Shown here: piece after piece, positions 26,362 to 56,976 of the stretch
Layout: the number at the start of each line of letters is the position of its first letter
Position numbering within the stretch: the stretch's first letter is position 1
Source of the DNA: Opitutaceae bacterium
GTDB taxonomy: Bacteria; Verrucomicrobiota; Verrucomicrobiia; Opitutales; Opitutaceae
Reading direction: 5' to 3'
Length of the DNA: 61,351 bases
Assembly: GCA_014376585.1 (NCBI GenBank)
Contig: JACMRG010000082.1
Coordinates: forward strand, 1-61,351
Program-made: the position numbers and the translations under genes
The notes under the pieces: model-generated
Databases searched by the model: none
The model's input: only the letters and a program-made list of their open reading frames with translations
Told to the model about the DNA's origin: nothing

Positions 26362-27846
26362 TCACCCGTCCCGATCGCGCGCGATGCGGCTCATGGAGCG
26401 CTGCGTGAGCACAGAGCGGTCTTGCTGTCTCGCGGTAAACGCTTTTGCGGCGACGCCCGATTTGGCGATAAGCCAGACATCTTTTTTGCCGTCCGAACGA
26501 ATTTTGAAAATATGCCACTCGCCCTCCAGTTTTTTGCCGTGCAGCACGAGTTTCAGGCGGCCCTCGCCGACGCTTCCGGCCAGCAGTTCGTAGGTTCCTA
26601 GATCCCACACCATGACAGTCCCGCCGCCATACTGCCCCTTGGGAATCGTGCCCTCAAATTTCAGGTAGGCGAGGGGATGATCTTCGACGGCGATGGCGGC
26701 ATGTTTCACGCCCAACGCCGTGGGCAAGCCTTTGGGCACCGCCCAAGACTTGAGCGTGCCGTCCATCTCCAGACGCAGATCGTAGTGCAGGTGCGACGCG
26801 GCATGTTTCTGGACGACGAACTTCACCCCTCGGTTGGTGCGGGGGTGCGAAGCGGGCGCCGCCGGCGGCTCGCCCGTCCGCGTGAAATCTCGTTTATCCG
26901 CGTAGCCTTTCAGCATGGGCTCGATCGGCGCCGACTGCGTGGCAAAGGCTTTGGGCAGCGCTTGTTTCAAGGTCAGGACCGGAGAAAAGATGTCGCCCGA
27001 TTTTTTCAGACGCCGGATGGCGGCGGCGGGGGTGAAGAAAAGTGCTCCGGTCTTTTTGGTGCGCAGGGCGCGTTTTAACTCCGGCCACGTCACGGGCATG
27101 GAGACAAACGGTGTGTCGTGTTTTCCCCGCACGGAGTAAACGGCGACGGTCGTTTTCGCGGGCGAGTTCTGGCTCCAGTCGATCAGGACCCGGCCCTTCC
27201 GCCGCACCTTGGCCATGTCACTCACGATGAGATCGGGATGTTTTTGCTCGAGCAGACGGGCGACGGCGTTGGCGAAAGCCCGCGTGGCGTCGTAGGTCAC
27301 CAGGGTGTTGAGCGGCACGTAAAGTTGCAGGCCCTTGGAACCGGAAACTTTCGGGAAGGCGGCGAGGCCCAGCCGGTCCAGCACCGCCTGCACGAGCAAC
27401 GCGACCCGCGCGCAGGCAAGCAGGTCGGCGCCCTCGCCGGGATCGAGATCGAAAACCACGCAGGTGGGCTGCGCCAGATTCCGCGTGCGATGCAAAAAAA
27501 GATGTAGCTCGATCGCCGCGATATTGGCGCACCAGGCGAGCGCGGGAGCACCGTCGATCACGATATATTCGGTCGCGCCCGAATCGCGGCGACGGGCGAC
27601 GGGGAACGTCTTGAGCCACGGCGGCGCGAAATGGGGCGCATTTTTTTCGTAGAAATGGATGCCGTCCACCCCGTCCGGAAATCGGATCAGGGTGACGGGG
27701 CGGTCGCGCAGATGCGGCAGGAGGTGCGGGGCGACGGCGACGTAGTAGGCGAGGAGGTCGCCCTTGGTAAAATTATCCGCCGGGAAAAAAACCTTGTCGA
27801 GGTGGGTGAACGCGACTTTACGCGTCGCGGTGGCTGGCGTCGGCAT
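26362..27846 (-). CDS. LigD-type polymerase plus 3'-phosphoesterase protein (no ligase domain)
   Basis: 494 residues. Residues ~10-290 are the archaeo-eukaryotic primase-like polymerase domain, with metal ligands Asp133 and Asp135 in VVFDLDPGEGA and the later RVLIDWSQN. Residues ~335-470 are the 3'-phosphoesterase domain, with HLHYDLRLEMDGTLKSWAVPKG, VEDHPLAYLKFEGTIPKGQYGGG and EGEWHIFKI. The domain order is Pol-PE and the ligase domain is missing; it is encoded separately at 25250. It fills and trims break ends during non-homologous end joining with Ku. It starts 15 bp after the Ku gene. Confidence 0.93.
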   Translation of the reverse strand: MPTPATATRKVAFTHLDKVFFPADNFTKGDLLAYYVAVAPHLLPHLRDRPVTLIRFPDGVDGIHFYEKNAPHFAPPWLKTFPVARRRDSGATEYIVIDGAPALAWCANIAAIELHLFLHRTRNLAQPTCVVFDLDPGEGADLLACARVALLVQAVLDRLGLAAFPKVSGSKGLQLYVPLNTLVTYDATRAFANAVARLLEQKHPDLIVSDMAKVRRKGRVLIDWSQNSPAKTTVAVYSVRGKHDTPFVSMPVTWPELKRALRTKKTGALFFTPAAAIRRLKKSGDIFSPVLTLKQALPKAFATQSAPIEPMLKGYADKRDFTRTGEPPAAPASHPRTNRGVKFVVQKHAASHLHYDLRLEMDGTLKSWAVPKGLPTALGVKHAAIAVEDHPLAYLKFEGTIPKGQYGGGTVMVWDLGTYELLAGSVGEGRLKLVLHGKKLEGEWHIFKIRSDGKKDVWLIAKSGVAAKAFTARQQDRSVLTQRSMSRIARDRDG

Positions 27847-27861
27847 CGGGATCGCCCTCGC

Positions 27862-28686
27862 TCAGGCTGCTTTGCGGGCCTTCTTTTTTGCGACCGGGAC
27901 TTTCTTGCCCGGGGCCGCATCGTCCAGGCTCTGCTGGAGCACGGCCGCGAGATCGATGACGTTGGTGGCGCGCTTGGGCGCGCGGCCCGTGCCGGGCAGT
28001 TCCTTGCCGCCGCTCGCCACTTTTTTGTCGATGAGTTTCATGAGGGCCGAGCGGTATTCGTCGGTGTAGCGCGCGGGATCCCACGTCTCGCTCATCTGAT
28101 TTACGAGGGACTTCGCCATGGTGAGTTCGCGCGCGCCGAGCCGTTTTTCGGCGGGGATCGAGATGGTCTTGGCATCCACGAGCTCGTCGGCGAAGCGCAT
28201 GAGTTCCAGCACGAGGAGATCGCCGTTGGCCTTGACGGCGGCGAGGTGCTGGCGGGTTTTGATGATGACCTTCGCGATGCCGGCTTTTTTGGTTTCCGCG
28301 AGCACCTGGCGCAACAGGTGGTAGGCGCCGCCGCCGCCCCTGAGCGGCTCAAGGTAGTAGGGCTTGTAGAAAAAAACGGGATTGATCTGCGCGAGTTCGA
28401 CGAAATCGACGATGTCGATGGTGTCGCTCGCCTCCAGATCGACGCGCTTGAAATCCTCGTCCTTCAGCACCACAAATTTTTCCTTTTCGTATTCGTAGCC
28501 CTTCACGATCTGGTCCCACGGCACCTCTTTGCCGTCGACCTGGGCGACACGCTTGTAGTTCACGGGGCTGAGATCGCCGCTGCGGAGCAGTTTGAATTTA
28601 AGCTCCTCCGTGCGGCTGGCGCCGTGGAGGGCGACGGGAATGTTGACGAGTCCGAAGCTGATGGAGCCTTGCCAGATTGCGCGCAT
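27862..28686 (-). CDS. ku: Ku homodimer protein, DNA-end binding
   Basis: 274 residues, normal for bacterial Ku. It begins MRAIWQGSISFGLVNIPVALHGA and contains VNYKRVAQVDGKEVPW, the core IDIVDFVELAQINPVFFYKPYYLEP, and RQHLAAVKANGDLLVLELMRFADEL. A short Lys-rich tail (KKVPVAKKKARKAA) is typical of the DNA-contacting extension. It forms a ring around double-strand break ends and recruits LigD-type enzymes, encoded directly downstream. The leader CAACTCCCATCCCCACC before the ATG has no Shine-Dalgarno. Confidence 0.95.
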   Translation of the reverse strand: MRAIWQGSISFGLVNIPVALHGASRTEELKFKLLRSGDLSPVNYKRVAQVDGKEVPWDQIVKGYEYEKEKFVVLKDEDFKRVDLEASDTIDIVDFVELAQINPVFFYKPYYLEPLRGGGGAYHLLRQVLAETKKAGIAKVIIKTRQHLAAVKANGDLLVLELMRFADELVDAKTISIPAEKRLGARELTMAKSLVNQMSETWDPARYTDEYRSALMKLIDKKVASGGKELPGTGRAPKRATNVIDLAAVLQQSLDDAAPGKKVPVAKKKARKAA

Positions 28687-33698: not shown

Positions 33699-35191
33699 CC
33701 GGAACGATGCAGTTGAAGCGGATTTCAGGAGGAAAAAGCGGGCGTAGTTTCGACTGCATTGCAGTTGGGGAAAGGGAAGAGGATTTTTCCCCAGAGGCGG
33801 CGCCACCCGTTGCGTTCGCTGGGCGGGAGGGCGAGTTTGACGGCGGTTTTGCCGGCGGGATGGGCGAGGATGCCGGGGGGCAGGAACAGGCGGAAACGCA
33901 GGGTGGAGACGGTCGGCTTGGTCTGCCAGCCGAGGTGGCGTTGGAAGAGCACGGTGAGGTTGTAGGTGAGCGCGGCCAGCGACAGCGCCGCCTTGATGGC
34001 CCGGAACGAGCGCAGGCACAAGGTCGTCAGGGCGAAGCCCTGCTGGAGTTCCTTGATGACGTTTTCGCCGTCGGCGCGGCCGTTGTAGTAACGCCAGACC
34101 GCCAGCGGCGGTTCGCTCGCGGGCAGGCTCGTGACGAGGGCTTGGAACAGGTAGCCGGGCACCTCGATCAGTTTTTTGCCGCCGGCTCCGGGGCGTTCGG
34201 CCACGCGGTGCCGGCTCAAAATCAGCCGGCGCGGGTGCGGCCAGCCCAAGGTCTGATATTCGGTCTCCGCGGCCTTGGTGCCGGGCACTTCGGTCGGGCT
34301 TCAGACGAGCCCGCCGCGCACTAGGTTTTTAATCGGCTCCGCGAGCTGCGTCACCACGACGTAGGGCACGCCCAACCGTTCCCACGGCGCGAGCAGTTCC
34401 GGCAGGCAGAAGCCGCGGTGGGCCCGCACGCCGCGCAGCCGCACGTGCCGGGGCAGGTTATGCCAAAGGTCTAGGAAGCAGGCGGCCGTGTTGTTGCCGC
34501 AGGTCGCGTTGCCGGAGCGCGGCCAGAGTTGCGCGACCAGACGCACCTCGGCGACGACCGCCAGGAGCGGATGCAGGCAGGGTTTCACCGAGCCGGGTAT
34601 AGCCCGCGCGCACGCCTTCCTGATGACCGTCCTCGTGCAGGCGCCGCGTCGAGTCCGGATCGGGCGTGTAGCCGCCTTCGCGCCGCGGCAGCCGGTCGCG
34701 TTGCCAGCGCCACAGCGGCCGGACGCACGCGAGGTTTTCGCCGGCCGAAGCAAACTCGCCGAAGAACCGCGAGAGGGTCGATTGGCTGGCGACGCGGGGG
34801 ATGCCGAGCGGCGCCGGCGCCAGGGGATCGCGCCGAAAATACGCGACGTGCGTCCCCTTGCGTGCCGCGCACAAGAGCCCGTGCGTGAAGGCCAGCGCCT
34901 TCGCCAACGGCGTGAGGCGGTTGTTCGAGACCGGCGCGAGGTGAGGCAGGCGCGCCCCCGGCTGCTTCGCCCGCTTCGTCCCGTGCAGCCACGCCCAGAA
35001 CGTCGCGCTGCCCGCGTGCGCCGAGAGCCGCTGTTCCTTCGAGCCGACCGCGATTGATTTTCCGCCCACTTTAAACTCGATTTCTTCCGCCACCGTTTGG
35101 CGAAGCGGACTTTCGTCCTCCGATTGTTTTGGTTTCGTTTACCGGCCGTCACTTCCCAGACGGCGGCTTTTTTTCAACTGCATCGTTCCGG
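33699..35191. mobile_element. Degenerate IS1380-like insertion sequence with 19-bp terminal inverted repeats
   Basis: CCGGAACGATGCAGTTGAA at 33699-33717 and its exact reverse complement at 35173-35191 are perfect 19-bp inverted ends, 1493 bp apart. Between them lies a broken IS1380-type transposase gene on the minus strand. The flanks are CTTTC on the left and CTTGG on the right, so no perfect target duplication is seen. The intact ends with a dead gene suggest an old copy that could only move with help in trans. Confidence 0.8.
33725..35093 (-). pseudogene. IS1380-family transposase, frameshifted and with an internal stop
   Basis: The reading begins at ATG 35093 (MAEEIEFKVGGKSIAVGSKEQRL). 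It keeps family signals such as RVASQSTLSRFFGEFA and the first Asp region YTPDPDSTRRLHEDGHQEGVRAGY, then shifts frame near 34585-34600. It continues KPCLHPLLAVVAEVRLVAQLWPRSGN until an in-frame TGA at 34301-34303, after which the same frame runs on to 33725 with WRYYNGRADGENVIKELQQGFAL, the Glu region. The second catalytic Asp expected in a RADSGF-like motif reads RAHRGF. Summed length is about 456 codons, normal for the family. Inactive. Confidence 0.85.
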
Positions 35192-37047: not shown

Positions 37048-38097
37048 ATGAAATTATCACATCGGATCAAAAACTCGGGAGCCGTCGTCGCCATGACGAT
37101 CTGCGGATCCCTCGGACTCGTAACCAACGCCAGCGCTCAACTCACCCTTCGATACGAAGAGGCTTTCGGGACCCATGCGGCGGGCGAGGCTTTTTCCGGA
37201 CCCTTCCGGATCAACCTACAAAATTTCGACAACGGCACGCTTTACCCGAGCCTCGGAGCGCCGGGCACCGCCGCGGGTTTTGGCGTCAACGGCACCGGCC
37301 CACAGACCGTGGCCGGCGGTATCTCCACGTTGAATTCCCTTCAAACCGCCGGCGCTACGGGCGCACAAAGTCAGCCGACGACCATCAATGGCGTGAATCA
37401 ACCCGCCTCCTCCAGCCCGGAGGACAGCTGGGGAATCGCGCGCATCATCTCGATCACCGATCTGGATGGCGGCGTGGTGTGGTCGGAGACCTTTAAAAAC
37501 CAGCAGCTTACCACCATGTTTTACGGGGCGAAGGACTTCTATGTGAGCCAGCTCGCCAGCGGATTCCAGCAGATCGATTCCGTCGGTCTGCATGTCGACC
37601 TCTATCTGCAAAACAAAACCGATCCGCTCTACACCGCCTATAACCCCTTTCTCGGCAGCGCCGGCCGCCTGGGACCTGATTCTTACACGACCGTCACCGA
37701 CGGTATGAAGATTCTCACGACCGTTTCGACAGGGGGATTCATCAACAGCAACGGCACGCTGGGCGGCTTGGCGACCGAGTTCAGCTCGGTTTACAACAAC
37801 ACGTCCGGTGGCACGGGGCAGACCTACCTGAGCGTCACCGGTGGCTCGCAGGCGGCGATGTTCGACTCGAATTTCTTCAGTTCGCCCTTCGTGCCCAACG
37901 TCACGGCGGACCTGCTCGCGCAGTTCACGACGGTGATCAACACCTCGACGGCCGACTGGCTCGTGCGCAGCAACGACCCGGTCACGGGCCGATTCACGCC
38001 CGTGCCCGAGCCCTCCACCTACGGCCTCGCGGCGGTGGCGGCCCTGACGGGGATCGTGGCGCTGCGTCGCCGCCGGCAGTCGCCACCGCGCGTCTGA
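37048..38097 (+). CDS. PEP-CTERM sorting-domain protein
   Basis: 349 residues. N-terminal signal peptide (SGAVVAMTICGSLGLVTNASA, cleavage near residue 32). The body is Gly/Thr/Ser/Asn-rich and beta-like, with no enzyme motif. The C-terminal sorting signal TPVPEPSTYGLAAVAALTGIV ends in ALRRRRQSPPRV: a VPEP motif, a membrane helix and an Arg cluster. It should be exported and processed by the exosortase encoded at 50996, then displayed at the surface or in the matrix. A clear terminator follows at 38121-38153. Confidence 0.92.
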   Translation: MKLSHRIKNSGAVVAMTICGSLGLVTNASAQLTLRYEEAFGTHAAGEAFSGPFRINLQNFDNGTLYPSLGAPGTAAGFGVNGTGPQTVAGGISTLNSLQTAGATGAQSQPTTINGVNQPASSSPEDSWGIARIISITDLDGGVVWSETFKNQQLTTMFYGAKDFYVSQLASGFQQIDSVGLHVDLYLQNKTDPLYTAYNPFLGSAGRLGPDSYTTVTDGMKILTTVSTGGFINSNGTLGGLATEFSSVYNNTSGGTGQTYLSVTGGSQAAMFDSNFFSSPFVPNVTADLLAQFTTVINTSTADWLVRSNDPVTGRFTPVPEPSTYGLAAVAALTGIVALRRRRQSPPRV

Positions 38098-38120
38098 GGC
38101 CGACGGATTCCAGCCGCTTG

Positions 38121-38153
38121 CGCGGAGCTCTGCAAAGGGCTCCGCGTTTTTTT
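38121..38153 (+). terminator. Intrinsic terminator after the PEP-CTERM gene
   Basis: CGCGGAGC (38121-38128) and GCTCCGCG (38139-38146) form a perfect 8-bp stem with a 10-base loop, directly followed by seven T (38147-38153). It ends 14 bp before the next plus-strand start, so that gene needs its own promoter or read-through. Confidence 0.85.
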
Positions 38154-38167
38154 CATAATAATACCCC

Positions 38168-39511
38168 ATGTCTGCACCTTTCGAAAATTCGGTTTTGGAA
38201 GCATTTCACCGGGCCGCGCTGCGGGTGCCCGCCTACCGCGTTCTATTGGGAGAGGCCGGGATCGACCCCGAGGCTATCCAGACGGCGGCGGATTTTTCCC
38301 GCCTGCCCGTGCTGGAGAAGCGCACCACCTTCCGGCGCTTTGCGATCAACGAACTTTGCCTCGACGGGCAACTCGGCCAGCTCGGCTCCGTGCTCACGAG
38401 TTCCGGTCATTCCGGTTTTTTTGCCTACGGTCTCACCGGAGCGGAGGCGGGGCCGGCGGCGACCGCGTGGATCGACGACCTGCTCGACCAGATGTTTCAG
38501 GTGCGCACGCAGCCCACGCTCTTGATCAACTGCCTGCCCATGGGCGTCAAAGTGCCCACCGCCGCCTGCACGCTGGCGGAGACGAGCGTGCGGCCCGACA
38601 TGGCCGTCGGGTTGGTGCTGGCCTTCGCGCGGCATTTTTCCCAGATCATTTTCGTGGGCGAGGCCGCGTTCATGAAACAGGTGCTCGAGCTGGGCCACCG
38701 GGTCGGCACGGATTGGCACAGTCTCCGTGTCCACCTGATTTTGGGCGAGGAAACGCTCGCCGAAAACGCCCGGAAATATCTCGAGGGGCTGCTGGGCATC
38801 GTCAACGGCCACCCCGACCACGGCGTGGTGATCTCCTCGATGGGGGTGGCTGAGCTGGGGTTGAATCTTTTTTCGGAAGCCCCGCCGCGGGGCACGCTGG
38901 TCCGGCTACGCCGGCAGTTGCACGAGGACCCCGCGCTTCGGCGGGCCGTGCTGGGCCCGTGCGATTGGGTGCCCTCGCTCTTCACCTACGACCCGCGCCG
39001 GATATTCGTGGAGTTCGATGCCACCGGGCGGTTAATCCTCACCGCCCTCGATCCGCGGGCCCGCGTTCCGTTGATCCGCTACGCCACGGGCGACCAGGGC
39101 CGCGAGCTACTCCTCCGACCGACACTGCGGCCGGCGCTCGAAGCGGCCGGCATGGACTGGGGCGAGCTGGAGTCGCTCCCCATCGTCGCGATCCACGGGC
39201 GCGGGGACCATGCGTTGGCGGGGACCAAGCCGGTTTATCCCGAGGCCGTCAAAGAGGGCCTCTACCACGATCCTGCTTTGGCGGAACTCACGACGGCTAA
39301 TTTCCGGTTGGTCTCCGGCGCGGTGAGTGCGCATGCGCGCATTCAGCTCGCGCCGGGCGTGAAGCCCAGCTCGCAAATGGACGAACGGTTCCTTGAGGCG
39401 ATTCGACACTACGTCCGCCAGCCGCTGGAAGTTTTCTGCCTCAACTACGCCACTTTTCGGAGCGGCATGACTTTGGATTACGAGCGGAAATTCCAATACC
39501 TGGAACGCTGA
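38168..39511 (+). CDS. PaaK/CapK/LuxE-like adenylate-forming enzyme
   Basis: 447 residues of the phenylacetate-CoA ligase / acyl-protein synthetase branch of the ANL superfamily. It begins VLEAFHRAALRVPAYRVLLGEAGIDPEAIQTAADFSRLPVLEKRT, with TSSGHSGFFAYGLT as the phosphate-binding loop, LINCLPMGVKVPT, VVISSMGVAELGLNLF, and PLIRYATGDQGRE with the ATP-binding Asp. It activates a carboxylic acid with ATP, to a CoA thioester or an acyl-adenylate for transfer. Its only close partner is the convergent FeeM-like acyltransferase gene 19 bp away, suggesting an acyl donor/acyl transfer pair. Confidence 0.8.
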   Translation: MSAPFENSVLEAFHRAALRVPAYRVLLGEAGIDPEAIQTAADFSRLPVLEKRTTFRRFAINELCLDGQLGQLGSVLTSSGHSGFFAYGLTGAEAGPAATAWIDDLLDQMFQVRTQPTLLINCLPMGVKVPTAACTLAETSVRPDMAVGLVLAFARHFSQIIFVGEAAFMKQVLELGHRVGTDWHSLRVHLILGEETLAENARKYLEGLLGIVNGHPDHGVVISSMGVAELGLNLFSEAPPRGTLVRLRRQLHEDPALRRAVLGPCDWVPSLFTYDPRRIFVEFDATGRLILTALDPRARVPLIRYATGDQGRELLLRPTLRPALEAAGMDWGELESLPIVAIHGRGDHALAGTKPVYPEAVKEGLYHDPALAELTTANFRLVSGAVSAHARIQLAPGVKPSSQMDERFLEAIRHYVRQPLEVFCLNYATFRSGMTLDYERKFQYLER

Positions 39512-39525
39512 GCCCGCGCGCGGGC
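39512..39525. terminator. Short GC palindrome between convergent genes
   Basis: GCCCGCGCGCGGGC is a perfect 14-bp palindrome filling most of the 19-bp gap between the stop of the PaaK-like gene and the stop of the FeeM-like gene. It could serve as a two-way transcript end but lacks a T-run on either side. Confidence 0.35.
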
Positions 39526-39530
39526 AGCGT

Positions 39531-40733
39531 TTACATCGACGGGTAGGACCACAGTTGCTGACGATCAATCGCCTGGCCGGACCAGTCGTCCCCGGGCGAC
39601 ATCACGCTTATGATGCGATTCCTTAGCGCCGTCCAAGCCGAGGCGGACGGCGCCGGTAGCCAGGAGCCGGTATCGGCCGGAGGGAACGGAGCCGCGCCGG
39701 GGCTCCGCAGCTCGACGGGGGTGGGCGTCGCATCATCTGCGTTTTCGTGGAAAGGCTCGAATTCCGTCCCGGCGGTCAGAACGTCGAACAACTCCCGACC
39801 CCAGCGGTGTCGCAGGCTCCGTAACTCCGCCGCGCTGCGTTCCGCCAGAAAATTCCCCGGTCGCACAAAAAGCTGCTCCAGTAGATCCGCGTTGAGGAAA
39901 TGGCGCCGGGCGGTCTTTCCCCAGTTGTCCACTAGGTCGATGAAAGGATTGGTTTCGGTCGCAAAACGGCGAATGAACTCCGCGGCCCCGCCGAGGCCCG
40001 TATCCGGCCCGAGAAGTCCGTTCAAATCCAGCCGCAGGGCGATCACCGGATCGTGGAGCTTCGCGGAATAACTGCGCTCGGAACCCAGATCGCCGAAACC
40101 CATCAGCCCGTAAAATGCGTGGTGGCTTGGGCTCACGGTCGCGACGCTCTCCTGATATCCGGCCCGCAGCGCATGCGCGACCGCGCAACGCATCAGCTCG
40201 GTGGGCACGGCCGATTGCCGATACGCTTCGGTCACCGCCTGGTTGGTGAATTCACACAACCGCAATCCCTTCGCCCGGAGCTGGTCCAACTCGGGCTTAA
40301 ACGCCGCATCGGAAGGCAGGCCCAGATCCGCCGAATCGCCCACCACGCTGATCACACCCACGACCCCGCCGTCTTTTTCCGCGATGAACGTGGCGGTTTC
40401 CGAGGTGGTCTCGAAGATCCGGAGCCGCAGGCCCGACGGCTCGGGCCGGAGGAAACCGGTGTCGATAAAAACGTCGTGCACGAGGCGGTAGGCGTTGCAC
40501 AGCTCATTCCCCGTGCACGCCCGGCGGATCGTCGCCCCCTTGGTGTCTTCGCCAAACAGCCCCGCACTCCGCAATCGCTTCAGCTTCCGCTCGGCCAACT
40601 TGAAATTGCCGGATTTCGACGAACCGGGACCCAGCGTAGATTCAGAGGGAGTGATCATTGGATTCTTTTGAGTGGATCGGCCCGGGAAATTCCGCACACG
40701 ATCGGGATGAATTTTGGACATAGGGGTTTCCAT
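39531..40733 (-). CDS. FeeM-like GNAT N-acyltransferase (N-acyl amino acid synthase type)
   Basis: About 400 residues from ATG 40733 (METPMSKIH); ATG 40721 is an alternative, and the frame reaching 40976 is less likely. Residues ~65-250 carry the FeeM-like fold: ATIRRACTGNELCNAYRLVHDVFIDTGFL, SETATFIAEKDGGVVGVISVVGD, LCEFTNQAVTE, and HALRAGYQESVATVSPSHHAFYGLMGF. Enzymes of this group join a fatty acyl chain to an amino acid. The C-terminal ~150 residues are of unknown role. The start codon lies within interleaved inverted repeats at 40723-40764. Paired with the convergent PaaK-like gene. Confidence 0.75.
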   Translation of the reverse strand: METPMSKIHPDRVRNFPGRSTQKNPMITPSESTLGPGSSKSGNFKLAERKLKRLRSAGLFGEDTKGATIRRACTGNELCNAYRLVHDVFIDTGFLRPEPSGLRLRIFETTSETATFIAEKDGGVVGVISVVGDSADLGLPSDAAFKPELDQLRAKGLRLCEFTNQAVTEAYRQSAVPTELMRCAVAHALRAGYQESVATVSPSHHAFYGLMGFGDLGSERSYSAKLHDPVIALRLDLNGLLGPDTGLGGAAEFIRRFATETNPFIDLVDNWGKTARRHFLNADLLEQLFVRPGNFLAERSAAELRSLRHRWGRELFDVLTAGTEFEPFHENADDATPTPVELRSPGAAPFPPADTGSWLPAPSASAWTALRNRIISVMSPGDDWSGQAIDRQQLWSYPSM

Positions 40734-49023: not shown

Positions 49024-49679
49024 AAACCCGCATCTATGTCGCGGACGACCATGCGATGGTGCGTCGTGGTCTGACTGCGCTCATCTCGTCCGAACCGGAT
49101 CTAGAGGTGTGCGGCGAAGCCGAGGATTGCGCCACCGCGACGAGCGAAGTGGCCAAGCTCCTTCCGGATGTCGTGATCGTGGATATTTCCCTGCGCGGCA
49201 ACAGCGGGCTGGAGCTGATCAAAAACATCAAGGCCTTCGATCCCAAGATCCACGTGATGGTGCTCTCGGTGCATGACGAGTCGGTTTACGCGCTGCGGGT
49301 GCTCAAGGCCGGAGCCAAGGGCTACGTCATGAAGCAGGACATCGCCAGCAAGGTGATCGACGCGATCCGCAAGGTGCGGAAGGGGCAGATGTATGTGAGC
49401 GAACGCGTCTCCAGCCAGATGCTCAACCGGCTCGTCAAGGGCCAGGATGAGAGCGGCGATTCGCCCGTCTCGGGCCTGAGCGACCGGGAACTTGAGGTGG
49501 TGATCCTGATCGGCTCGGGCCTGGCGACCCGCGAGATCGCATCCCGGCTTCACGTGAGCGTGAAAACCGTGGAGACCCACCGCGCGCACATTAAGACGAA
49601 GGTCAACGTCAACACCGCCACGCAGCTCGTGCAGTTTTGCGTTCGTTGGGTGGAGGACAGTAAACGACTCCCCTCGTGA
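49020..49679 (+). CDS. NarL-family response regulator
   Basis: 219 residues from ATG 49020. Receiver at ~3-122 (IYVADDHAMVRRGLTALISSEPDLEV; Asp55 in VIVDISLRGNSG; Lys in GYVMKQDIASKV). LuxR helix-turn-helix at ~150-212 (LSDRELEVVILIGSGLATREIASRLHVSVKTVETHRAHIKTKVNVN). It is translationally coupled to the kinase (ATGA) before it and to the glycosyltransferase (GTGA) after it. It is the prime candidate to bind the GGGnnnnACCCCAT motif in its own promoter; that is inference. Confidence 0.94.
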   Translation: MKTRIYVADDHAMVRRGLTALISSEPDLEVCGEAEDCATATSEVAKLLPDVVIVDISLRGNSGLELIKNIKAFDPKIHVMVLSVHDESVYALRVLKAGAKGYVMKQDIASKVIDAIRKVRKGQMYVSERVSSQMLNRLVKGQDESGDSPVSGLSDRELEVVILIGSGLATREIASRLHVSVKTVETHRAHIKTKVNVNTATQLVQFCVRWVEDSKRLPS

Positions 49680-50956
49680 AAATCACACTGTGGGGCATCA
49701 ACTATGCGCCCGAGTCCATCGGCATCGCGCCCTTTAACCGGGAGCTGTGCGAATTTCTCGCCGGCCGGGGCCACGACGTCACGGCGGTCACCTCCTTTGC
49801 CTACTACCCGCATTGGCGGAAGCAGTTCGCCGACCGGGGCCGTTGGCACCGGCGTGAGTCGGCCAACGGCGTCCGCCTGCACCGGTGTTGGTGTTATGTC
49901 CCCGCCGTGGTGACGACGCCGGGCCGCATCGTCCACGAGTTGAGCTTTGGACTGGTCTCGATGGGGCGCATCCTCGCGCTGCCGCGGGCCGACGTCTATG
50001 TGGTCGTGAGCCCGCCGCTCGGGTTGGGTTTTTTAGCGTGGATCGCCACCACGCTGAAGCGGAGTCGGTTTGTGTTTCACGTGCAGGACCTGCAACCGGA
50101 TGCGGCCGTGGAACTCGGCATGCTGCGGCGGGGCCTGCTGGTGCGCCTGCTTTACGGCCTGGAGCGGCTGGCTTATGCGAAGGCCACGAAAGTCTCGGGG
50201 ATTTCGGAGGGCATGATAGCGGCGTTTGACCGAAAAGGCGTGCCCGCGGCCAAGCGCGTTCTCCTGCCCAACTGGCTGCGGATGGGTCTCGAGGTCACGC
50301 CCGATCCGGCGGACCGTGCCGGAGCCCGGCGCCGGTTCGGAGTGCCGGAAGGGAATCTCCTTGCGATCTACGCCGGCAATCTTGGGCGGAAACAAAATTT
50401 GGAAATCGTGATCGAGGCGGCGGGCCTGCTCGCATCGCGGGCGACTGAAGAACCGAATCGGGTGACGGTGATCATCGCTGGCGACGGCGCGGCCCGGCCG
50501 GATCTCGAGCGCCGCCTGCAGGCGCAGGCGGGGGCTGATGTGCATTTGCTGCCCCTGCTCTCCGAAGCGGATTACGCCGCGCTGCTCGGCGCCGCGGATG
50601 TGGCCCTGATCACGCAGTGCAAGGGCACGGGCCAATTCTTCTTCCCGAGCAAGCTGCTCTCCGTGCTGGCGGCAGGGCTGCCCGTGGTGGCCGTCGCCGA
50701 TGACGACAGCGAACTGGCGCGCGCGCTGCGGACAGGCGGCTTTGGTCTCACCGTGGCGCCGGCCGACGCGGCGGGCCTCGCCTCCGTCCTGAAGTTGCTG
50801 GCGAAATCCCGCGCGCAACTCGATGCGTGGTCCGCGCGCACCATCTGGGTGGATCAATTCTCCCGTCAAAACATCCTGCCGCGCTTCGAGGAAATGCTGC
50901 TCACCGCGAGCCGCGGTTTGGAGCGGGTGCCGACCAAAATGGCGATGCCGGCGTGA
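49676..50956 (+). CDS. WcaI-family glycosyltransferase (GT4)
   Basis: 426 residues starting at GTG 49676, overlapping the regulator stop. The N terminus ITLWGINYAPESIGIAPFNRELCEFLAGRGHDVTAVTSFAYYPHW and VLLPNWLRMG are typical of WcaI-like enzymes of colanic acid and related exopolysaccharides. The C-terminal GT4 domain has IYAGNLGRKQNLEIVIEAAGLL and CKGTGQFFFPSKLLSVLAAGLPVVAV (donor-binding). It is a cytoplasmic or peripheral membrane sugar transferase. It is the first polysaccharide gene of the locus; the exosortase follows after 39 bp. Confidence 0.9.
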   Translation: MKITLWGINYAPESIGIAPFNRELCEFLAGRGHDVTAVTSFAYYPHWRKQFADRGRWHRRESANGVRLHRCWCYVPAVVTTPGRIVHELSFGLVSMGRILALPRADVYVVVSPPLGLGFLAWIATTLKRSRFVFHVQDLQPDAAVELGMLRRGLLVRLLYGLERLAYAKATKVSGISEGMIAAFDRKGVPAAKRVLLPNWLRMGLEVTPDPADRAGARRRFGVPEGNLLAIYAGNLGRKQNLEIVIEAAGLLASRATEEPNRVTVIIAGDGAARPDLERRLQAQAGADVHLLPLLSEADYAALLGAADVALITQCKGTGQFFFPSKLLSVLAAGLPVVAVADDDSELARALRTGGFGLTVAPADAAGLASVLKLLAKSRAQLDAWSARTIWVDQFSRQNILPRFEEMLLTASRGLERVPTKMAMPA

Positions 50957-50995
50957 AGCTGCGCCCGCCTTCCAGCACTCCCAATTTTTTCCATC

Positions 50996-52621
50996 ATGAA
51001 TTCCAGCACCACTGCCCCCGGATATACCTGCCCGAGCGACCGCCCGGCCGCGCTGCGGCGATGGCCGTGGAAGACGTGGGCGCCGACGGGTGCGCTGCTC
51101 GCCCTGCTCTGGCTGTTCATTTTCAACCAGCAACGTCTGGAATGGACGGTCAACGTCGTCTATGCCTACGGCTGGGCGGTGCCCGCGATGGCGTTGTTCC
51201 TCCTCTGGGAACGTTGGCGCACACGGCCGGAGGCGCAGACTCCGATGCTCGCCCCGGCGATGCTGGCCGGCGGGGCCCTGCTGCTGGCGGTTTATTTGCC
51301 GGTGCGGGTCATCCAAGAGGCAAATCCGGACTGGGTTAAGATCAACTGGAGCCTCGCGACACTTGCGGTGGGATTGTCGTGGCTCGCGCTCGCGGCGACG
51401 GGCGGGGCGCGCTACGCCCTGCACTTCACTTTCCCGCTGCTGTTTTGTTTCTCCGCGCTGCCGTGGCCGGTGTGGATGGAGACCTACCTCGTGCAGGAGC
51501 TGATGCGCGGCAACGCGGCGATCTGCGCGGAGATTCTCACCTTTCTCGGCACGCCGGCGATCGCGGAGGGCAATCTGATCCAAGTCGCCGACCGTTGGGT
51601 GAACGTCGAGGAGGCGTGCAGCGGCATCCGCTCGCTCCAGACCGCGTTCATGATGTCGCTTTTCCTCGGGGAGCTGCACCGCCTGTCCGCCGCCCGCCGG
51701 GTGGGACTGCTCGCGGCCTCGTTCGGCTTCGCATTTTTCGTGAACCTGCTGCGAACGCTCCTGCTGACCTATCTCGCGAGGACGCCCGGCGTGGCGGAGC
51801 GCTGGCACGACACGATCGGGATCGTGGCGATGATCGGCTGCCTCGTGGCGCTCTGGGGACTCTCGGAATGGTTTCGGCCGCGACGGAGGGCGGCGGTCGC
51901 CGTGGTGCCGTCGGCGGCGCCGGAATTCGACCGCGTGCCATTCCCGCGCTGGTTCGCCGTGGCGGGTTGCGCGTGGTTGGTCGCGGCGGAGGCGCTCACG
52001 GGTTTCTGGTATTCGTATCACGAGAGACAGGTGCCGCCGAGCGTGGCCTGGCACGTGGCCTGGCCGGAAAAAGCGCTGCACTTTCAGCGGGGCGAGTTTG
52101 CGGAACGCACGCTCGCGTTGCTTAAATTTAACGATGGCGCGACGGCCTCGTGGTCGGCCGAAGGGGTCTATCCCTGGCAGATGTATGCGCTCAACTGGCA
52201 GCCCGGGCGGGTCTCAAAATTTCTTTCAAGCTCGCATTATCCGACGGTGTGCCTGCCCGCGACGGGGCTGAAACTGGTGGCGGAACTGGGCGGTTGGGAA
52301 TGTGAGGCCAACGGCGTGCGCATCCCTTTCGCGACCTATCTTTTCAACCAAGCCGGCCGGGATGTTTATGTGTTTCACGCGATCATCGAGGATCGGCCCT
52401 TGCGGGCCGGGGAGCGTTTTTCCTACCGGCAGGTGGACTCATCGGAGCGGCTCCGCTCGGTCTGGCAGGGTGAACGCAACCTCGGCCAGCACGTGATCGG
52501 CATCGCGCTCCTCGCGGCCTCTTCGCCCGAGGAGGCGCGCGGGGTCGTCACCCGGGTCCTGCATTCTGTGATCCGCCCCGGACCGGCCGTTGATTCCGGC
52601 CCACCCCAAAAATCTCTATGA
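50996..52621 (+). CDS. Exosortase with C-terminal EpsI-like domain
   Basis: 541 residues. About eight membrane helices lie in residues 25-310. Catalytic residues match the exosortase triad: Cys208 in NVEEACSGIRSLQ, Arg253 in FVNLLRTLLL, and His271 in RWHDTIGIVAM. One more helix at ~325-345 leads to an EpsI-like periplasmic domain (SVAWHVAWPEKALHFQRGEF...NWQPGRVSKFLSSSHYPTVCLPATG...VYVFHAIIED). It cuts PEP-CTERM sorting signals in the inner membrane. Two substrates are in the window (37048 and 56266). It overlaps the TPR gene by ATGA. I do not assign a specific Xrt subtype. Confidence 0.93.
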   Translation: MNSSTTAPGYTCPSDRPAALRRWPWKTWAPTGALLALLWLFIFNQQRLEWTVNVVYAYGWAVPAMALFLLWERWRTRPEAQTPMLAPAMLAGGALLLAVYLPVRVIQEANPDWVKINWSLATLAVGLSWLALAATGGARYALHFTFPLLFCFSALPWPVWMETYLVQELMRGNAAICAEILTFLGTPAIAEGNLIQVADRWVNVEEACSGIRSLQTAFMMSLFLGELHRLSAARRVGLLAASFGFAFFVNLLRTLLLTYLARTPGVAERWHDTIGIVAMIGCLVALWGLSEWFRPRRRAAVAVVPSAAPEFDRVPFPRWFAVAGCAWLVAAEALTGFWYSYHERQVPPSVAWHVAWPEKALHFQRGEFAERTLALLKFNDGATASWSAEGVYPWQMYALNWQPGRVSKFLSSSHYPTVCLPATGLKLVAELGGWECEANGVRIPFATYLFNQAGRDVYVFHAIIEDRPLRAGERFSYRQVDSSERLRSVWQGERNLGQHVIGIALLAASSPEEARGVVTRVLHSVIRPGPAVDSGPPQKSL

Positions 52622-55236
52622 AACCCAAGAAAACCCGATGGAAGCGCTGGCTGGGCGGCAGCCTGCTGGCAGTGGTCGTGATCACGGGCGGGTATTTTGG
52701 CGGGCGCCATTATGCGTGGCCCCTCGTCAAGACGTGGCGCGCCGAGCGGATGAACCGCGCCGCACGCGCGTTTCTCGCGAGCGGTGATTATGCGAACGCG
52801 GTTCTCACGGCCCGCAAGAGTCTGAAGTCCTCCACGCAAAACGCGGAGGCGTGGCGCATCGCCGCCGCCGCGTCAAAGGCGCGCGATCTGCCCGAGGCCG
52901 TGTCCTACCAGGACAGTCTTTGCCGGGAGGAACCGACCAAGGAAAACTACCTCGAACTGATCCGCCTCGCCCTGCATTTCGACGTGCCCGGCTACGCACT
53001 CGAGACGATCAAGTCCGTGGGGCCGGAAGCGCGCGGCGACGCCAACTTTCACCGGCTGGCCGCCCAAGTTTACACGCGGACGGGCCAGCCGACGGCGGCG
53101 AGGTTTCACCTCGTGGTGCTGACGCAGCTCCAACCCGCCGACCATACGGCCCAGTTGGATCTGGCGGAAATTGAACTTACAGCGGATCCGCGGGGTAAAG
53201 ACGTGGCGCTGCGCGCCCGCGTGCTCGCACTGGCAGATAAGAGGGGCCTCGGCGGCCGGGCGCTCACGCTGCTGCTGCGGGAAAACGTGACCCGCAAAGT
53301 GACGACCGGCACGGCGGAACTCGTGCGCCGGCTGCTGCTCGTGCCAGATCTGTCGGTGGCCGACCGCCTGCTGTTGATCGAGGGACAGGCGCTGTTGGGT
53401 CGCTCCGAGGGGCTCGTCGTGCTTCGCCGGTTGCAGGATGAAGTGGTGGACAAACCGGCCGATGCGGCCCGGGTCCTGGAGCTTTTTATCCGCACGGGTC
53501 GGGCGGCGGAGGTGGCTCCCTGGTTCGCCACGCTGCCGGAGAAGACGCGCAAGGATGAAGAGGTGCAGCACCAGATGGCCGAGGCGCTGCTCGTGATGCG
53601 CGAAGCTTCGGCGTTGGAGGCGTTTCTCCGCGGTGGACGCTGGCCCCTCCGCGACTATCTGCGCGAGGCGTTTCTGGCGCACGCCTACCGCGACTTGGGG
53701 CGCTCAGCCGAGTTTTCCGAAGCGTGGAAGCAGGCCCTGATCGGCGCGGGCGCAGACCTCCGCAAAACCGTCGCCCTGCTCGCCCGGGTGGATGACTGGC
53801 GCTGGGTCAACGAGCGCCACGATGTCGTCTGGAAGCTCTTCGCGCTGCTGCCGACGAACGAATCCGTGCAACAGGTCCTCATCACTTGGGAGCGCCATCA
53901 AAACAACACCGCAAATCTGAACCGGCTCTTTGCCCGGATCGTGGAAATGCAGCCCAAGAACGATGTCGCGCGCAACAATCTCGCCTACCTCAGCCTGCTG
54001 CTCGACACCAACCTCGGCCGCGCCAGCCTGATGGCGGCGGACCTGACGAAGACGAGTCCGAAAAACCCCTTTTTCGTGACGACCCACGCCCTCGCGCTCT
54101 ACAAGCAGGGCCACGCCGCCGAGGCCCTCGCCCGCCTCGATACGCTCACGGCCACCGAGCGCACCGAGCCGGTGCGCATGCTCTGCCGGGCCCTGTGCCT
54201 GGCGGCGCTGGGACAGGCGGCAACGGCATCGGACCTCTTGAACGGCGTCGTGCTCACGCAGCTGCTTCCCGAGGAAAAACGCCTCGCCGAGCGCGTGCAG
54301 ACGGAAGTCGCGCGAATTGATCGCGTGCAGGGCAACCGATCCCGGTTGCTCGCGTTCCGGCAGGGGCGGGAGCAGACGACGGGAGCGGCCGGCTGGCTGG
54401 CGGTGGTGGCGCCGGAGACGCGGCGCAACGCGACCACGGACATGCAACTCGCCGACTCACTCTACGCCACGGGGGATTGGCCGGGTCTGCGGCAGTTGCT
54501 GCGTTCGAACCAGTGGCGGGCCGAAGACTATCTGCGCACGGCATTGCTGGCCCATGCGGCCCGTCAAAGCGGGGAGCTGAGCCAAAGCCGGCAGGAATGG
54601 CGGCTGGCGCTGGCGGTCGCGGATCACCAGCCGGACCGGTTGCAAAACCTCCGCGCCCTGGTGACGCAGTGGCAGTGGGCGCCCGAGCGGATGGAGACGC
54701 TCAATCTCATTTTCGAACGCAATGCCACCGACCGCGGACTCCTGGCGGAACTCCTCCATTATTATCGCGGAGCGCGGCGCACGCCCGAGCAATTGCGCGT
54801 GCTCGGCCTCTACGTGGCCAGCAACGGGGAAACGACCGACGAAGCCGTGGCCCACGCCTATTACAGCCTTTTGCTCGATACCAATGCGGTCCGCGCGCAC
54901 GTGGTGGCGCGCAGTGCCTTCGAAGCGGCACCCGGTGATACGGTGCGCCGCATGGTTTACGTCTTCTCGCTTTGGAAACAGCATCGCGCGGCGGAGGCCA
55001 TGCCTCTGCTCGCCGCGGTGCCGCCCGGCGCCGCCTCGGACTTGGTGGCGATCCCGCTGCTCAGGGCCACCATCCTCACCCAGCTCGGGAACGCGGAGGC
55101 GGCGCGGGCCAGCCTCGCGCATTTTAATCCCACCTCGGCGCTGCCGGAGGAGATTGAGCTGGCGGAAAAGATTTCCCGCCAGCTCGCCGCGCAAACGCAG
55201 GCGCAGGCGGGCGCCGTCAAGCCCCCACGGACCTGA
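52618..55236 (+). CDS. TPR-type helical-repeat protein of the exosortase locus
   Basis: 872 residues. One N-terminal membrane helix (WLGGSLLAVVVITGGYFGG) anchors it, preceded by a Lys/Arg-rich cytoplasmic tail. The rest is a long array of helical hairpins with TPR-like spacing, for example MNRAARAFLASGDYANAVLTARKSLK, NAEAWRIAAAASKARDLPEAV, and NDVARNNLAYLSLLLDTNLGRASLMAADL. Proteins of this design (PrsT-like) occur in exosortase/exopolysaccharide loci and may act as periplasmic scaffolds. Coupled to the exosortase by ATGA. Its 3' end overlaps the convergent GT2 gene by 20 bp. Confidence 0.85.
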   Translation: MKPKKTRWKRWLGGSLLAVVVITGGYFGGRHYAWPLVKTWRAERMNRAARAFLASGDYANAVLTARKSLKSSTQNAEAWRIAAAASKARDLPEAVSYQDSLCREEPTKENYLELIRLALHFDVPGYALETIKSVGPEARGDANFHRLAAQVYTRTGQPTAARFHLVVLTQLQPADHTAQLDLAEIELTADPRGKDVALRARVLALADKRGLGGRALTLLLRENVTRKVTTGTAELVRRLLLVPDLSVADRLLLIEGQALLGRSEGLVVLRRLQDEVVDKPADAARVLELFIRTGRAAEVAPWFATLPEKTRKDEEVQHQMAEALLVMREASALEAFLRGGRWPLRDYLREAFLAHAYRDLGRSAEFSEAWKQALIGAGADLRKTVALLARVDDWRWVNERHDVVWKLFALLPTNESVQQVLITWERHQNNTANLNRLFARIVEMQPKNDVARNNLAYLSLLLDTNLGRASLMAADLTKTSPKNPFFVTTHALALYKQGHAAEALARLDTLTATERTEPVRMLCRALCLAALGQAATASDLLNGVVLTQLLPEEKRLAERVQTEVARIDRVQGNRSRLLAFRQGREQTTGAAGWLAVVAPETRRNATTDMQLADSLYATGDWPGLRQLLRSNQWRAEDYLRTALLAHAARQSGELSQSRQEWRLALAVADHQPDRLQNLRALVTQWQWAPERMETLNLIFERNATDRGLLAELLHYYRGARRTPEQLRVLGLYVASNGETTDEAVAHAYYSLLLDTNAVRAHVVARSAFEAAPGDTVRRMVYVFSLWKQHRAAEAMPLLAAVPPGAASDLVAIPLLRATILTQLGNAEAARASLAHFNPTSALPEEIELAEKISRQLAAQTQAQAGAVKPPRT

Positions 55237-56128
55237 CGACCGCCATCTGCGCCCGCGCCCCGGACGGGGCCGCGGGCTGTTGCAGCCGCATTTCCGCCGC
55301 CTTGGCGACGGACATAAATTCATACACGGCGTGGAGCCGGGCGAAATAAAATCCCCGGGCGCCATCGAGAAACCCGCGCTGGATCAGGTAAACATACAGG
55401 AAGCGCAACGTCGGCCGGAAGGGGAGTCGGCGCGACCAGCGCTTGAGGCGGCGGCGAAAGTCCACCGCGGACGATTGGAGCGCGCCATCTCCGGCCTTCA
55501 GGCCTGCCTCCACCTCCAGCCGCGCCTCCCAATTGGAGTAGCGGTTGTGCTTCTCGACAAACACATCGATCGAGGGAAAGGCGAAGTGGTCCATCTCGCA
55601 ACGGAGCCGGCCGGTCTTGCCGGAGACGACGACGTGCTCGTGCACCTCGTTGTCGCCGCTTTGCGTGGCGCCTTGGACGAGCCGCTCGTAGCGGCCGAGC
55701 CGGTGGCGGAAAAGGCGCAGGTTCCAATTCGGATAATAAGAGTGACGCAGCCAGTCGCCCATAAACATGAAGCGCCGGTTGATCCAGAAACCGGCCCGGC
55801 CCGCTCCGTCCCGCGCGAGCAGGGCTTCGATTTCGGCGGCGGCCGCCGGGGGCATGACTTCGTCGGCGTCGAGGATGAGGATCCATTCGTGGCGGAAGGG
55901 CAGGTTTTCGAGGGCCCAGTTTTTTTTCTTCGGCCAGATGCCATTGAAATTAAACTGCACCACCTGCGCGCCGGCGGCGGTGGCGATGGCGACGGAGTCG
56001 TCGGTGCTCTGCGAATCTACGACGAAGATCTCATCGGCCCACGCGACGGACGCGAGACACCGGGGCAGGTTGGCGGCTTCATTGCGGACCGGGATGATGA
56101 TGGAGACGGAAATTTTAGATGAATTCAT
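55217..56128 (-). CDS. Family 2 glycosyltransferase (WaaE/KdtX-like)
   Basis: 303 residues. GT-A fold with ISVSIIIPVRNEAANLPRCLASVAWADEIFVVDSQSTDDSVAIA, then HEWILILDADEVMPPAAAAEI (DxD site), then FWINRRFMFMGDWLRHSYYPNWNLRLFRHRLGRYE and EVHEHVVV, as in lipopolysaccharide-core transferases of the WaaE type. The C-terminal amphipathic part probably binds the membrane. It lies within the polysaccharide locus but on the opposite strand to the exosortase. TTTTTCCTCC precedes the ATG, the opposite of a Shine-Dalgarno. Confidence 0.9.
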   Translation of the reverse strand: MNSSKISVSIIIPVRNEAANLPRCLASVAWADEIFVVDSQSTDDSVAIATAAGAQVVQFNFNGIWPKKKNWALENLPFRHEWILILDADEVMPPAAAAEIEALLARDGAGRAGFWINRRFMFMGDWLRHSYYPNWNLRLFRHRLGRYERLVQGATQSGDNEVHEHVVVSGKTGRLRCEMDHFAFPSIDVFVEKHNRYSNWEARLEVEAGLKAGDGALQSSAVDFRRRLKRWSRRLPFRPTLRFLYVYLIQRGFLDGARGFYFARLHAVYEFMSVAKAAEMRLQQPAAPSGARAQMAVVRSVGA

Positions 56129-56153
56129 GGAGGAAAAATTGGGCGGGCAGCCC

Positions 56154-56190
56154 GAAAAAAAGCCGCCACGACCAGGTAGTCGCGGCGGCT
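56154..56190 (-). terminator. Intrinsic terminator downstream of the second PEP-CTERM gene
   Basis: On the minus strand a 12-bp stem (arms 56190-56179 and 56172-56161, one wobble pair) with a 6-base loop is followed by a run of seven T (56160-56154). The opposite strand also ends in five T (56191-56195), but has one mismatch. It separates the PEP-CTERM gene from the GT2 gene downstream on the same strand. Confidence 0.88.
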
Positions 56191-56265
56191 TTTTCTTACC
56201 AATCTAGCGATGTCGTTGGGCTAACTTCGAGTCGTCGGCGCGGGGTGACACCGACGAGTTCGGCG

Positions 56266-56976
56266 TTAGGCCAGTGACAAAGCAGCGGCGTTGGCCGAGG
56301 AACGGCGGCGGCGGAGCGCCACAATCCCACCGAGGGCGAGCACGCCGAAGAGGGCGTAGGTCGAGGGTTCGGGCACGGGCGTCGCGAGGGCGAGGAACTG
56401 GAACTGGATGGCGGCCGTGGTGGACGAGCCGTCAAACAACGTGCCGCTGTTGTTCGATACCACCGAGGCGTAGCCGTAAGAGGAACCGTTGATCGAGACC
56501 GAGCCGAAGAACTGTTGCGGAACGATCGAGTAGTTCACGCCGCTTAAACCGTTGGGCGCCGTGAAGGGTGACAGACTCAACGTGTAGTTCTGGGTGAGAT
56601 CATACGTGCCGTTGTTGTCGAAATCCGTATCGATCGCGACCTGCACGCTGCTGAAGAAATTCGCCGGGGAGACGGGCGAAGTGAACTGGAACGTGGCCGT
56701 GTTGAGGGTGCCCGTGTTCAGGGTCACGTTGCCCGGCCCGGTGAGGGGCTGGTAAACGATGGTGAATGGCGTCGCGACCGGCGTGCCGGTGGTGACAGTT
56801 TCGGCGAGGTTGACGCCGCCATTGTTCGAGACGCCGTTGTTGGTGCCGCCGACGAAACCGGTGAAGGTTGCGCGTTCGCGGACGTTTACAATCAGTTGCG
56901 CGTGGGCGTTTATTGCGGTAAAGGCCAGCCCGAGGGCGGCCGCTAGTAACAACTTTGATTTCGGTCTAAGTTTCAT
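56266..56976 (-). CDS. PEP-CTERM sorting-domain protein, second
   Basis: 236 residues. Signal peptide KSKLLLAAALGLAFTAINAHA (cleavage near residue 26). The body is Asn/Thr/Gly-rich (TFTGFVGGTNNGVSNNGGVNLAETV) and beta-like. The sorting tail ATPVPEPSTYALFGVLALGGI leads into VALRRRRSS: VPEP motif, membrane helix, Arg cluster. It sits inside the exosortase/polysaccharide locus and is a likely direct substrate of the enzyme at 50996. A terminator follows, and a leader stem-loop precedes it at 57003-57016. Confidence 0.92.
   Translation of the reverse strand: MKLRPKSKLLLAAALGLAFTAINAHAQLIVNVRERATFTGFVGGTNNGVSNNGGVNLAETVTTGTPVATPFTIVYQPLTGPGNVTLNTGTLNTATFQFTSPVSPANFFSSVQVAIDTDFDNNGTYDLTQNYTLSLSPFTAPNGLSGVNYSIVPQQFFGSVSINGSSYGYASVVSNNSGTLFDGSSTTAAIQFQFLALATPVPEPSTYALFGVLALGGIVALRRRRSSANAAALSLA

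Follow-up and report, generated by a model that had tools for sequence, protein, structure and literature searches.

N-acyl amino acid synthases were reportedly noticed next to PEP-CTERM sorting genes by Craig et al. in 2011. To our knowledge, what the exosortase joins its cargo to is not settled. Synthases of this kind adjoining PEP-CTERM genes are published (PMC4897644, PMC7293339), and the synthase cluster of S. maiorica itself includes a PEP-CTERM gene (PMC7293339). For this adjacency, noted since 2011, no reason was found in the portions of the literature examined. Genomes with PEP-CTERM proteins often carry many cargo genes, with a median of eight and up to 65 (PMC1569441). In the stieleriacine clusters of Stieleria, N-acyl amino acid synthase genes are accompanied by a carboxylate-adenylating enzyme (PMC7293339, PMC12479983). 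Likewise, the oxazolone pathways TyzABC, TrzAS and OxzAB combine a FeeM-fold N-acyltransferase with an ATP-using carboxylate-activating enzyme (PMC10404671, PMC12856293). The acyl donors of FeeM-type enzymes are acyl-ACP or acyl-CoA, as documented for TyzA, with lauroyl-CoA (PMC10404671), and for TrzA (PMC12856293).

Here we describe three genes, coding for a PEP-CTERM protein, an adenylate-forming enzyme (hereafter the ligase) and a FeeM-like N-acyltransferase, which very probably constitute one functional module. They lie in a stretch of 61,351 nucleotides (hereafter the window) of contig JACMRG010000082.1 from an Opitutaceae bacterium. According to the list of open reading frames, the PEP-CTERM gene (37048..38097, + strand, 349 aa) is followed by the ligase gene on the same strand (38168..39511, 447 aa), and the FeeM-like gene runs towards them on the opposite one (39531..40658, − strand, 375 aa). 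The convergence of the two enzyme genes, pointed out in the first-pass annotation, is borne out, with 19 bp between the stops (39512..39530) and a palindrome inside this gap. For the FeeM-like gene, a start at position 40733 was given there, probably 75 nt upstream of the true one; two relatives show homology only from M26 on, so that the gene probably starts at 40658 and codes for the 375-aa protein. Elsewhere in the window, a transposase remnant (33725-35093), probably a broken insertion element, is separated from the PEP-CTERM gene by about 2 kb; it matches DDE_Tnp_1_4 with 52.6 bits at 33725-34288 (− strand), its upstream open frames are in a different frame, and the one frame tested gave no Pfam match. 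Two neighbouring genes at 26362-28686 resemble an end-joining pair, presumably of the LigD and Ku types.

The FeeM-type identity of the acyltransferase proved genuine. Specifically, residues 81-236 of the 400-aa reading score 121.3 bits against PF21926 (cut-off 27), three orthologues score 124.7, 120.3 and 108.6 bits, and the protein matches the FeeM crystal chain 2g0b with a profile E-value of 7e-21. Counted from the conserved start, the domain covers residues 56-211 (40026..40493, − strand) and retains the counterpart of the catalytic glutamate of FeeM-type synthases, Glu136 (codon 40251..40253, − strand), which is invariant in all five aligned sequences. Glu136 aligns with the FeeM glutamate that is number 96 in our count of the PDB chain and presumably corresponds to Glu95 of PMC4897644, where the catalytic glutamate is reported to be needed in Nas354. 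The whole protein is 49-52%, 63% and 28% identical to its orthologues in the genomes G034, G163 and G358, respectively, and the domain alone is 69-81% identical to those of the two family orthologues. The enzyme, a fatty-acyl transferase, probably makes lipid-like amino acids.

The extra C-terminal part of about 150 residues ascribed to this protein is indeed present, as 164 aa (39534..40025, − strand), and is without a match in Pfam or the PDB. It is not special to this protein, because the relatives (338 and 310 aa) also exceed the 198-aa FeeM chain. In comparison with the two family orthologues, residues 212-292 are moderately conserved (44-54%) and are followed by a loose tail (29-35%). 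With TIGR03694, the family of PEP-CTERM/exosortase system-associated acyltransferases (cut-off 111.95 bits), the FeeM-like protein gave no match at E<=10, and none of the four genomes carrying the trio holds a protein above that cut-off, the one partial match (27.2 bits) being in G163. A scan of genome contigs with the FeeM-like protein returned a sole match, in Bradyrhizobium (L009; 60% over 35 residues), which was rejected as spurious, the frame not being a FeeM.

The ligase had been described as PaaK/LuxE-like, and the two halves of this label fared differently. LuxE membership was discarded, with no LuxE match in Pfam, where the ligase has no family at E<=10 and its three orthologues none at E<=1. 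The PaaK half stands, on weak profile matches and ordered motifs. The score against TIGR02155, the PaaK phenylacetate-CoA ligase family, is 28.2 bits, far below the cut-off of 646.3. The sequence contains a P-loop TSSGHSG, RYxTGD, GRGxH and a C-terminal ERKF lysine, the motifs of adenylate-forming (ANL, PaaK-like) enzymes. A profile built from four ligase sequences aligned with PDB chains of PaaK in the correct order (SSGHSG with SSGTTG, PLIRYxTGD with PLIRYRTRD, GRGxH with GRSDD), so that colinear motifs around SSGxxG, RYxTGD and GRxxx are common to both, the ligase nevertheless scoring far under the PaaK cut-off. All four motifs are kept in 4/4 orthologues, with the variant RYKPGD in G358, and the overall identity is 63% to the G034, 70% to the G163 and 46% to the G358 protein. 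Because its motifs occur in order and are kept throughout, we class the ligase as a predicted divergent PaaK-type adenylate-forming enzyme.

The PEP-CTERM gene adjoins the pair, as had been reported: its product scores 24.6 bits against PF07589 (cut-off 20.7) and bears an N-terminal hydrophobic signal and a C-terminal tail of the form VPEPS...LRRRR. Homologues in G034 (61% identity) and G163 (71%) are also above the cut-off; the one in G358 (36%) ends in IPEP...LRRR, yet is not matched by any Pfam family at E<=1. This protein is the dedicated PEP-CTERM family of the module. An exosortase is present in all four trio genomes, but also in 95 of 100 genomes of the family, and for this reason its co-occurrence says little and was dropped as evidence for the module. 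None lies inside the module: that of the window is at a distance of about 10 kb and that of G034, of a different type, at about 4 kb, whereas the matches listed for G163 and G358 include none on the contigs that carry the trio.

The window exosortase (541 aa) belongs to an exosortase/EPS locus (49676-56976), which also includes a WcaI-like glycosyltransferase, a PrsT-type TPR protein and another PEP-CTERM protein, and which, within the stretches covered, is not common to the other trio loci. The G034 exosortase is small (L008, 2067-2966) and is adjoined by an AraC-type regulator and an esterase-like gene.

In the intergenic region between the PEP-CTERM and ligase genes, a terminator-like hairpin (38120..38153, + strand) folds with a 12-bp stem, a 4-nt loop and a U run; the corresponding hairpins of G034 and G163 likewise combine a stem of 12 bp with a U run after it. 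The ligase gene thus does not just continue an open transcript from the PEP-CTERM gene, and its transcription must be assumed to depend on read-through or on a promoter of its own. The palindrome at the convergent stops forms a hairpin in the window and in G034, and not clearly in G163. Candidate sites of the sigma-54 type in front of these genes (PEP-CTERM and FeeM) were considered and rejected, being inconsistent, with a best case of 8/10 bases at one locus. In G163, the ligase lies within an unbroken frame of 1120 codons (L020, 839-4201) that crosses the PEP-CTERM gene out of frame, and the GTG start of the ligase (2840) is a few bases past the U run of the terminator.

We then compared the loci that carry the three genes. 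Both G034 and G163, the latter found by a search of the family, have the trio in the same order and orientation as the window. In G358, which belongs to another family, all three genes fall within about 10.3 kb in a different arrangement: the FeeM and ligase genes are on one strand, overlapping by 11 nt or, with a later start, separated by a gap of at most 131 nt, with the PEP-CTERM homologue encoded on the opposite strand at a distance of 6.8 kb. Apart from the trio, no gene near it is common to the four loci, the other cross-locus matches being of response-regulator, kinase and sigma-factor types or genes distant in the window. In particular, the large CheB/CheR kinase system, which had been placed with the set, is absent from the other three loci and was set aside as a neighbour particular to the window.

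The distribution of the three genes was recorded over one and the same draw of 387 genomes of the phylum, with equal tallies. The FeeM orthologue profile found four genomes (G000, G034, G358 and G542), the ligase three (G000, G034 and G358), and the PEP-CTERM protein the same three, the latter two counts coming from profiles that include the trio sequences, and the G358 copies having first been found by BLAST with the window proteins. Thus, all three genes occur together, and always close, in the same 3/387 genomes, the window's included. Fisher tests ignoring relatedness gave about 4e-7 and 1e-7, and 4e-5 and 1e-5 once the window's genome was left out, kinship again being ignored. In G542, the FeeM relative is on a 6.6-kb contig without the ligase and PEP-CTERM genes. 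That the two enzymes belong together, as first supposed, is supported by the presence of a FeeM orthologue in each of the three genomes of this draw that have the ligase; the tie to the PEP-CTERM protein turned out to be stronger than supposed, as it is found close by in those same genomes.

Within the family, 252 genomes yielded three strong ligase matches (G000, G034 and G163), a count that leaves out weak matches of 50-76 bits in G060, G148 and G037, which were examined separately. As to whether the pair is conserved across Opitutaceae, a check suggested in the first-pass annotation, the genes are together where present, but they are not widespread. On this count the module is rare and patchy; among the genomes listed, no other member of the window genome's own genus has it, and the finding of FeeM in 2 of 150 genomes is consistent with its rarity.

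To define how specific this association is, we examined control loci. PF21926 gave 26 matches in 25 of 155 genomes of the phylum. From the 22 non-trio genomes among them, the neighbourhoods of the 17 passing the cut-off were taken (G341, G317, G332, G286 and G292 fell under it and were left out), and 0/17 showed a ligase or PEP-CTERM homologue nearby, not counting the tail-pattern rows L074 and L079, which carry PAP and not PEP. Similarly, 0/5 distant ligases (24-31% identical) had a FeeM or PEP-CTERM homologue within the stretches covered. Since partners are missing from all 17 other FeeM loci and all five distant ligases, the association belongs to a particular ligase clade and a particular FeeM-like clade. 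In G296, from another family of the same order, a FeeM-like frame (L067, 176-1432) scores 96 bits to PF21926; the match starts 281 bases from the contig start, and the missing side could hold partner genes. A search of plasmids returned two distant relatives of the ligase and, for FeeM, a fusion protein of Nitratidesulfovibrio, and no relatives were found in the viral contigs searched.

The module is supported by the conservation of the set, its co-inheritance, the adjacency of FeeM and ligase genes on a single strand in G358, the adenylate-forming motifs, and a FeeM domain that keeps its glutamate. As to its function, we propose that the ligase would adenylate a carboxylic acid with ATP and convert it into a thioester, bound to CoA or to a carrier, and that the FeeM-like enzyme would pass the acyl group on to an amino acid, or a comparable amine, at its amino group, yielding a lipo-amino acid. 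A PaaK-type ligase could supply FeeM, as FeeM-type enzymes use acyl-ACP or acyl-CoA. We consider these two chemistries, adenylation to a thioester and FeeM-type acyl transfer, to be likely. The PEP-CTERM protein would be exported, and the lipid may serve as its membrane partner or anchor or, alternatively, be laid down together with it in the envelope or matrix. The reading as a whole, in which ligase thioester feeds a FeeM lipo-amino acid made for the exported protein, is put forward tentatively, as a plausible one; in it, we infer which substrates are used, in what order the two reactions proceed and how they relate to the exported protein. Several observations count against it: the ligase matches characterised CoA ligases weakly; in the window, G034 and G163 the ligase gene is parted from the PEP-CTERM gene by a terminator-like hairpin and from FeeM by its strand; the G358 PEP-CTERM homologue is non-adjacent and without a Pfam match at E<=1; the loci are four, three of them from one family; and single-sequence AlphaFold models, with mean pLDDT values of 38.6 and 40.0, were unusable.

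In the main rival reading, the order of the two enzymes is reversed: the ligase would act after FeeM, on the N-acyl amino acid, and adenylate its carboxylate, leading to cyclisation to an oxazolone or to joining with another nucleophile, in place of the ThiF-type enzyme of the oxazolone pathways. This has good precedents: TyzB and TrzS are ThiF carboxylate-adenylating enzymes that are paired with FeeM-type synthases and act on the N-acyl amino acid (PMC10404671, PMC12856293). A FeeM-ThiF-nitroreductase fusion adjoins XrtA/PEP-CTERM genes on the Nitratidesulfovibrio plasmid, and the adenylating enzyme of the trio keeps the same company as in the ThiF cases. Nonetheless, PaaK-type and ThiF enzymes have unrelated folds, the cassette is without a nitroreductase-type desaturase, and the supply of an acyl thioester is the simpler role; a ligase working downstream of FeeM thus appears rather unlikely.

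That the product of the module is secreted as a signal or surfactant, for which the PEP-CTERM protein would be the carrier or receptor, we regard as improbable. N-acyl amino acids can be surface active, as in Nas354 (PMC4897644), and can alter biofilm communities (PMC7293339), but no receptor, regulator or exporter gene is common to the four loci and the CheB/CheR neighbour is confined to the window. The signal-making role proposed in the first-pass annotation is not supported. A more specific form of the anchor idea, distinctly improbable in our judgement, is that the two enzymes build a private lipid anchor for the co-inherited PEP-CTERM protein, in that an exosortase attaches the N-acyl amino acid, as such or activated, to the C-terminus created by cleavage; if true, a lipid anchor would be encoded beside its own cargo.

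The co-inheritance of one dedicated protein family with two enzymes might further suggest that these modify the PEP-CTERM protein itself, by N-acylation or carboxylate activation. FeeM-type enzymes are, on the contrary, known to use free amino acids, and in a hydropathy scan the most hydrophobic stretch was N-terminal in the PEP-CTERM protein, resembling an export signal, and in neither enzyme; such a modification is very unlikely. Finally, a set of chance neighbours or a shared regional ancestry without functional link, in line with the origin of three of the four loci in one family, is strongly disfavoured and extremely improbable, given flanks that are unrelated between loci, a different arrangement in G358 and a ligase and PEP-CTERM co-occurrence that is complete over the 387 genomes.

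Under the preferred reading, of a lipo-amino acid made for an exported PEP-CTERM protein, the trio is a small, testable case of how such lipids may be connected with protein sorting, a connection still without explanation. Here it comes down to a single cargo family and two enzymes, gained and lost together, and so the deletion of one gene and the weighing of one protein could tell whether the lipid serves the protein.

By comparing the trio with the systems introduced above, it appears that a FeeM-type or related synthase beside PEP-CTERM genes is the feature shared with the published cases of adjacency. Unlike these, the trio has as partners a PaaK-type ligase and a single PEP-CTERM family dedicated to the module, in a cassette without an exosortase, and its FeeM-like protein is outside TIGR03694, the NCBI family for exosortase-associated acyltransferases. 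The pairing of a synthase with a carboxylate-adenylating enzyme is common to Stieleria, where this enzyme is of the ThiF type and is accompanied by a nitroreductase (PMC7293339, PMC12479983), whereas here it is of the PaaK type and the cassette is without a nitroreductase. The same pairing is found in the Tyz, Trz and Oxz systems, which employ a ThiF cyclase and a flavin oxidase and for which PMC10404671 and PMC12856293, as far as consulted, report no PEP-CTERM partner. Neither a ThiF-type cyclase nor a nitroreductase-type oxidase was found beside the acyltransferase at the four loci, where the trio alone is shared. WP_011787321, of the NF011425/PRK14852 type, encoded on plasmid pDVUL01 of Nitratidesulfovibrio vulgaris, likewise has FeeM and adenylating domains beside XrtA/PEP-CTERM genes; it differs in being a single fusion with ThiF and nitroreductase, and the neighbouring PEP-CTERM protein is of the THxN family. 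This fusion (L040, 3983-6952) resembles a complete oxazolone pathway contained in a single protein at a sorting locus.

By analogy among these systems, a FeeM-type synthase, a carboxylate-adenylating enzyme and a PEP-CTERM protein seem to have met more than once, with different adenylating folds. No literature joining a PaaK-type partner to a co-inherited PEP-CTERM family was found among the titles and abstract beginnings searched, most subscription papers lying outside this search. In conclusion, the links among synthase, adenylating enzyme and PEP-CTERM protein are known from other systems, and what appears to be new at this locus is the PaaK-type partner together with a co-inherited PEP-CTERM family.
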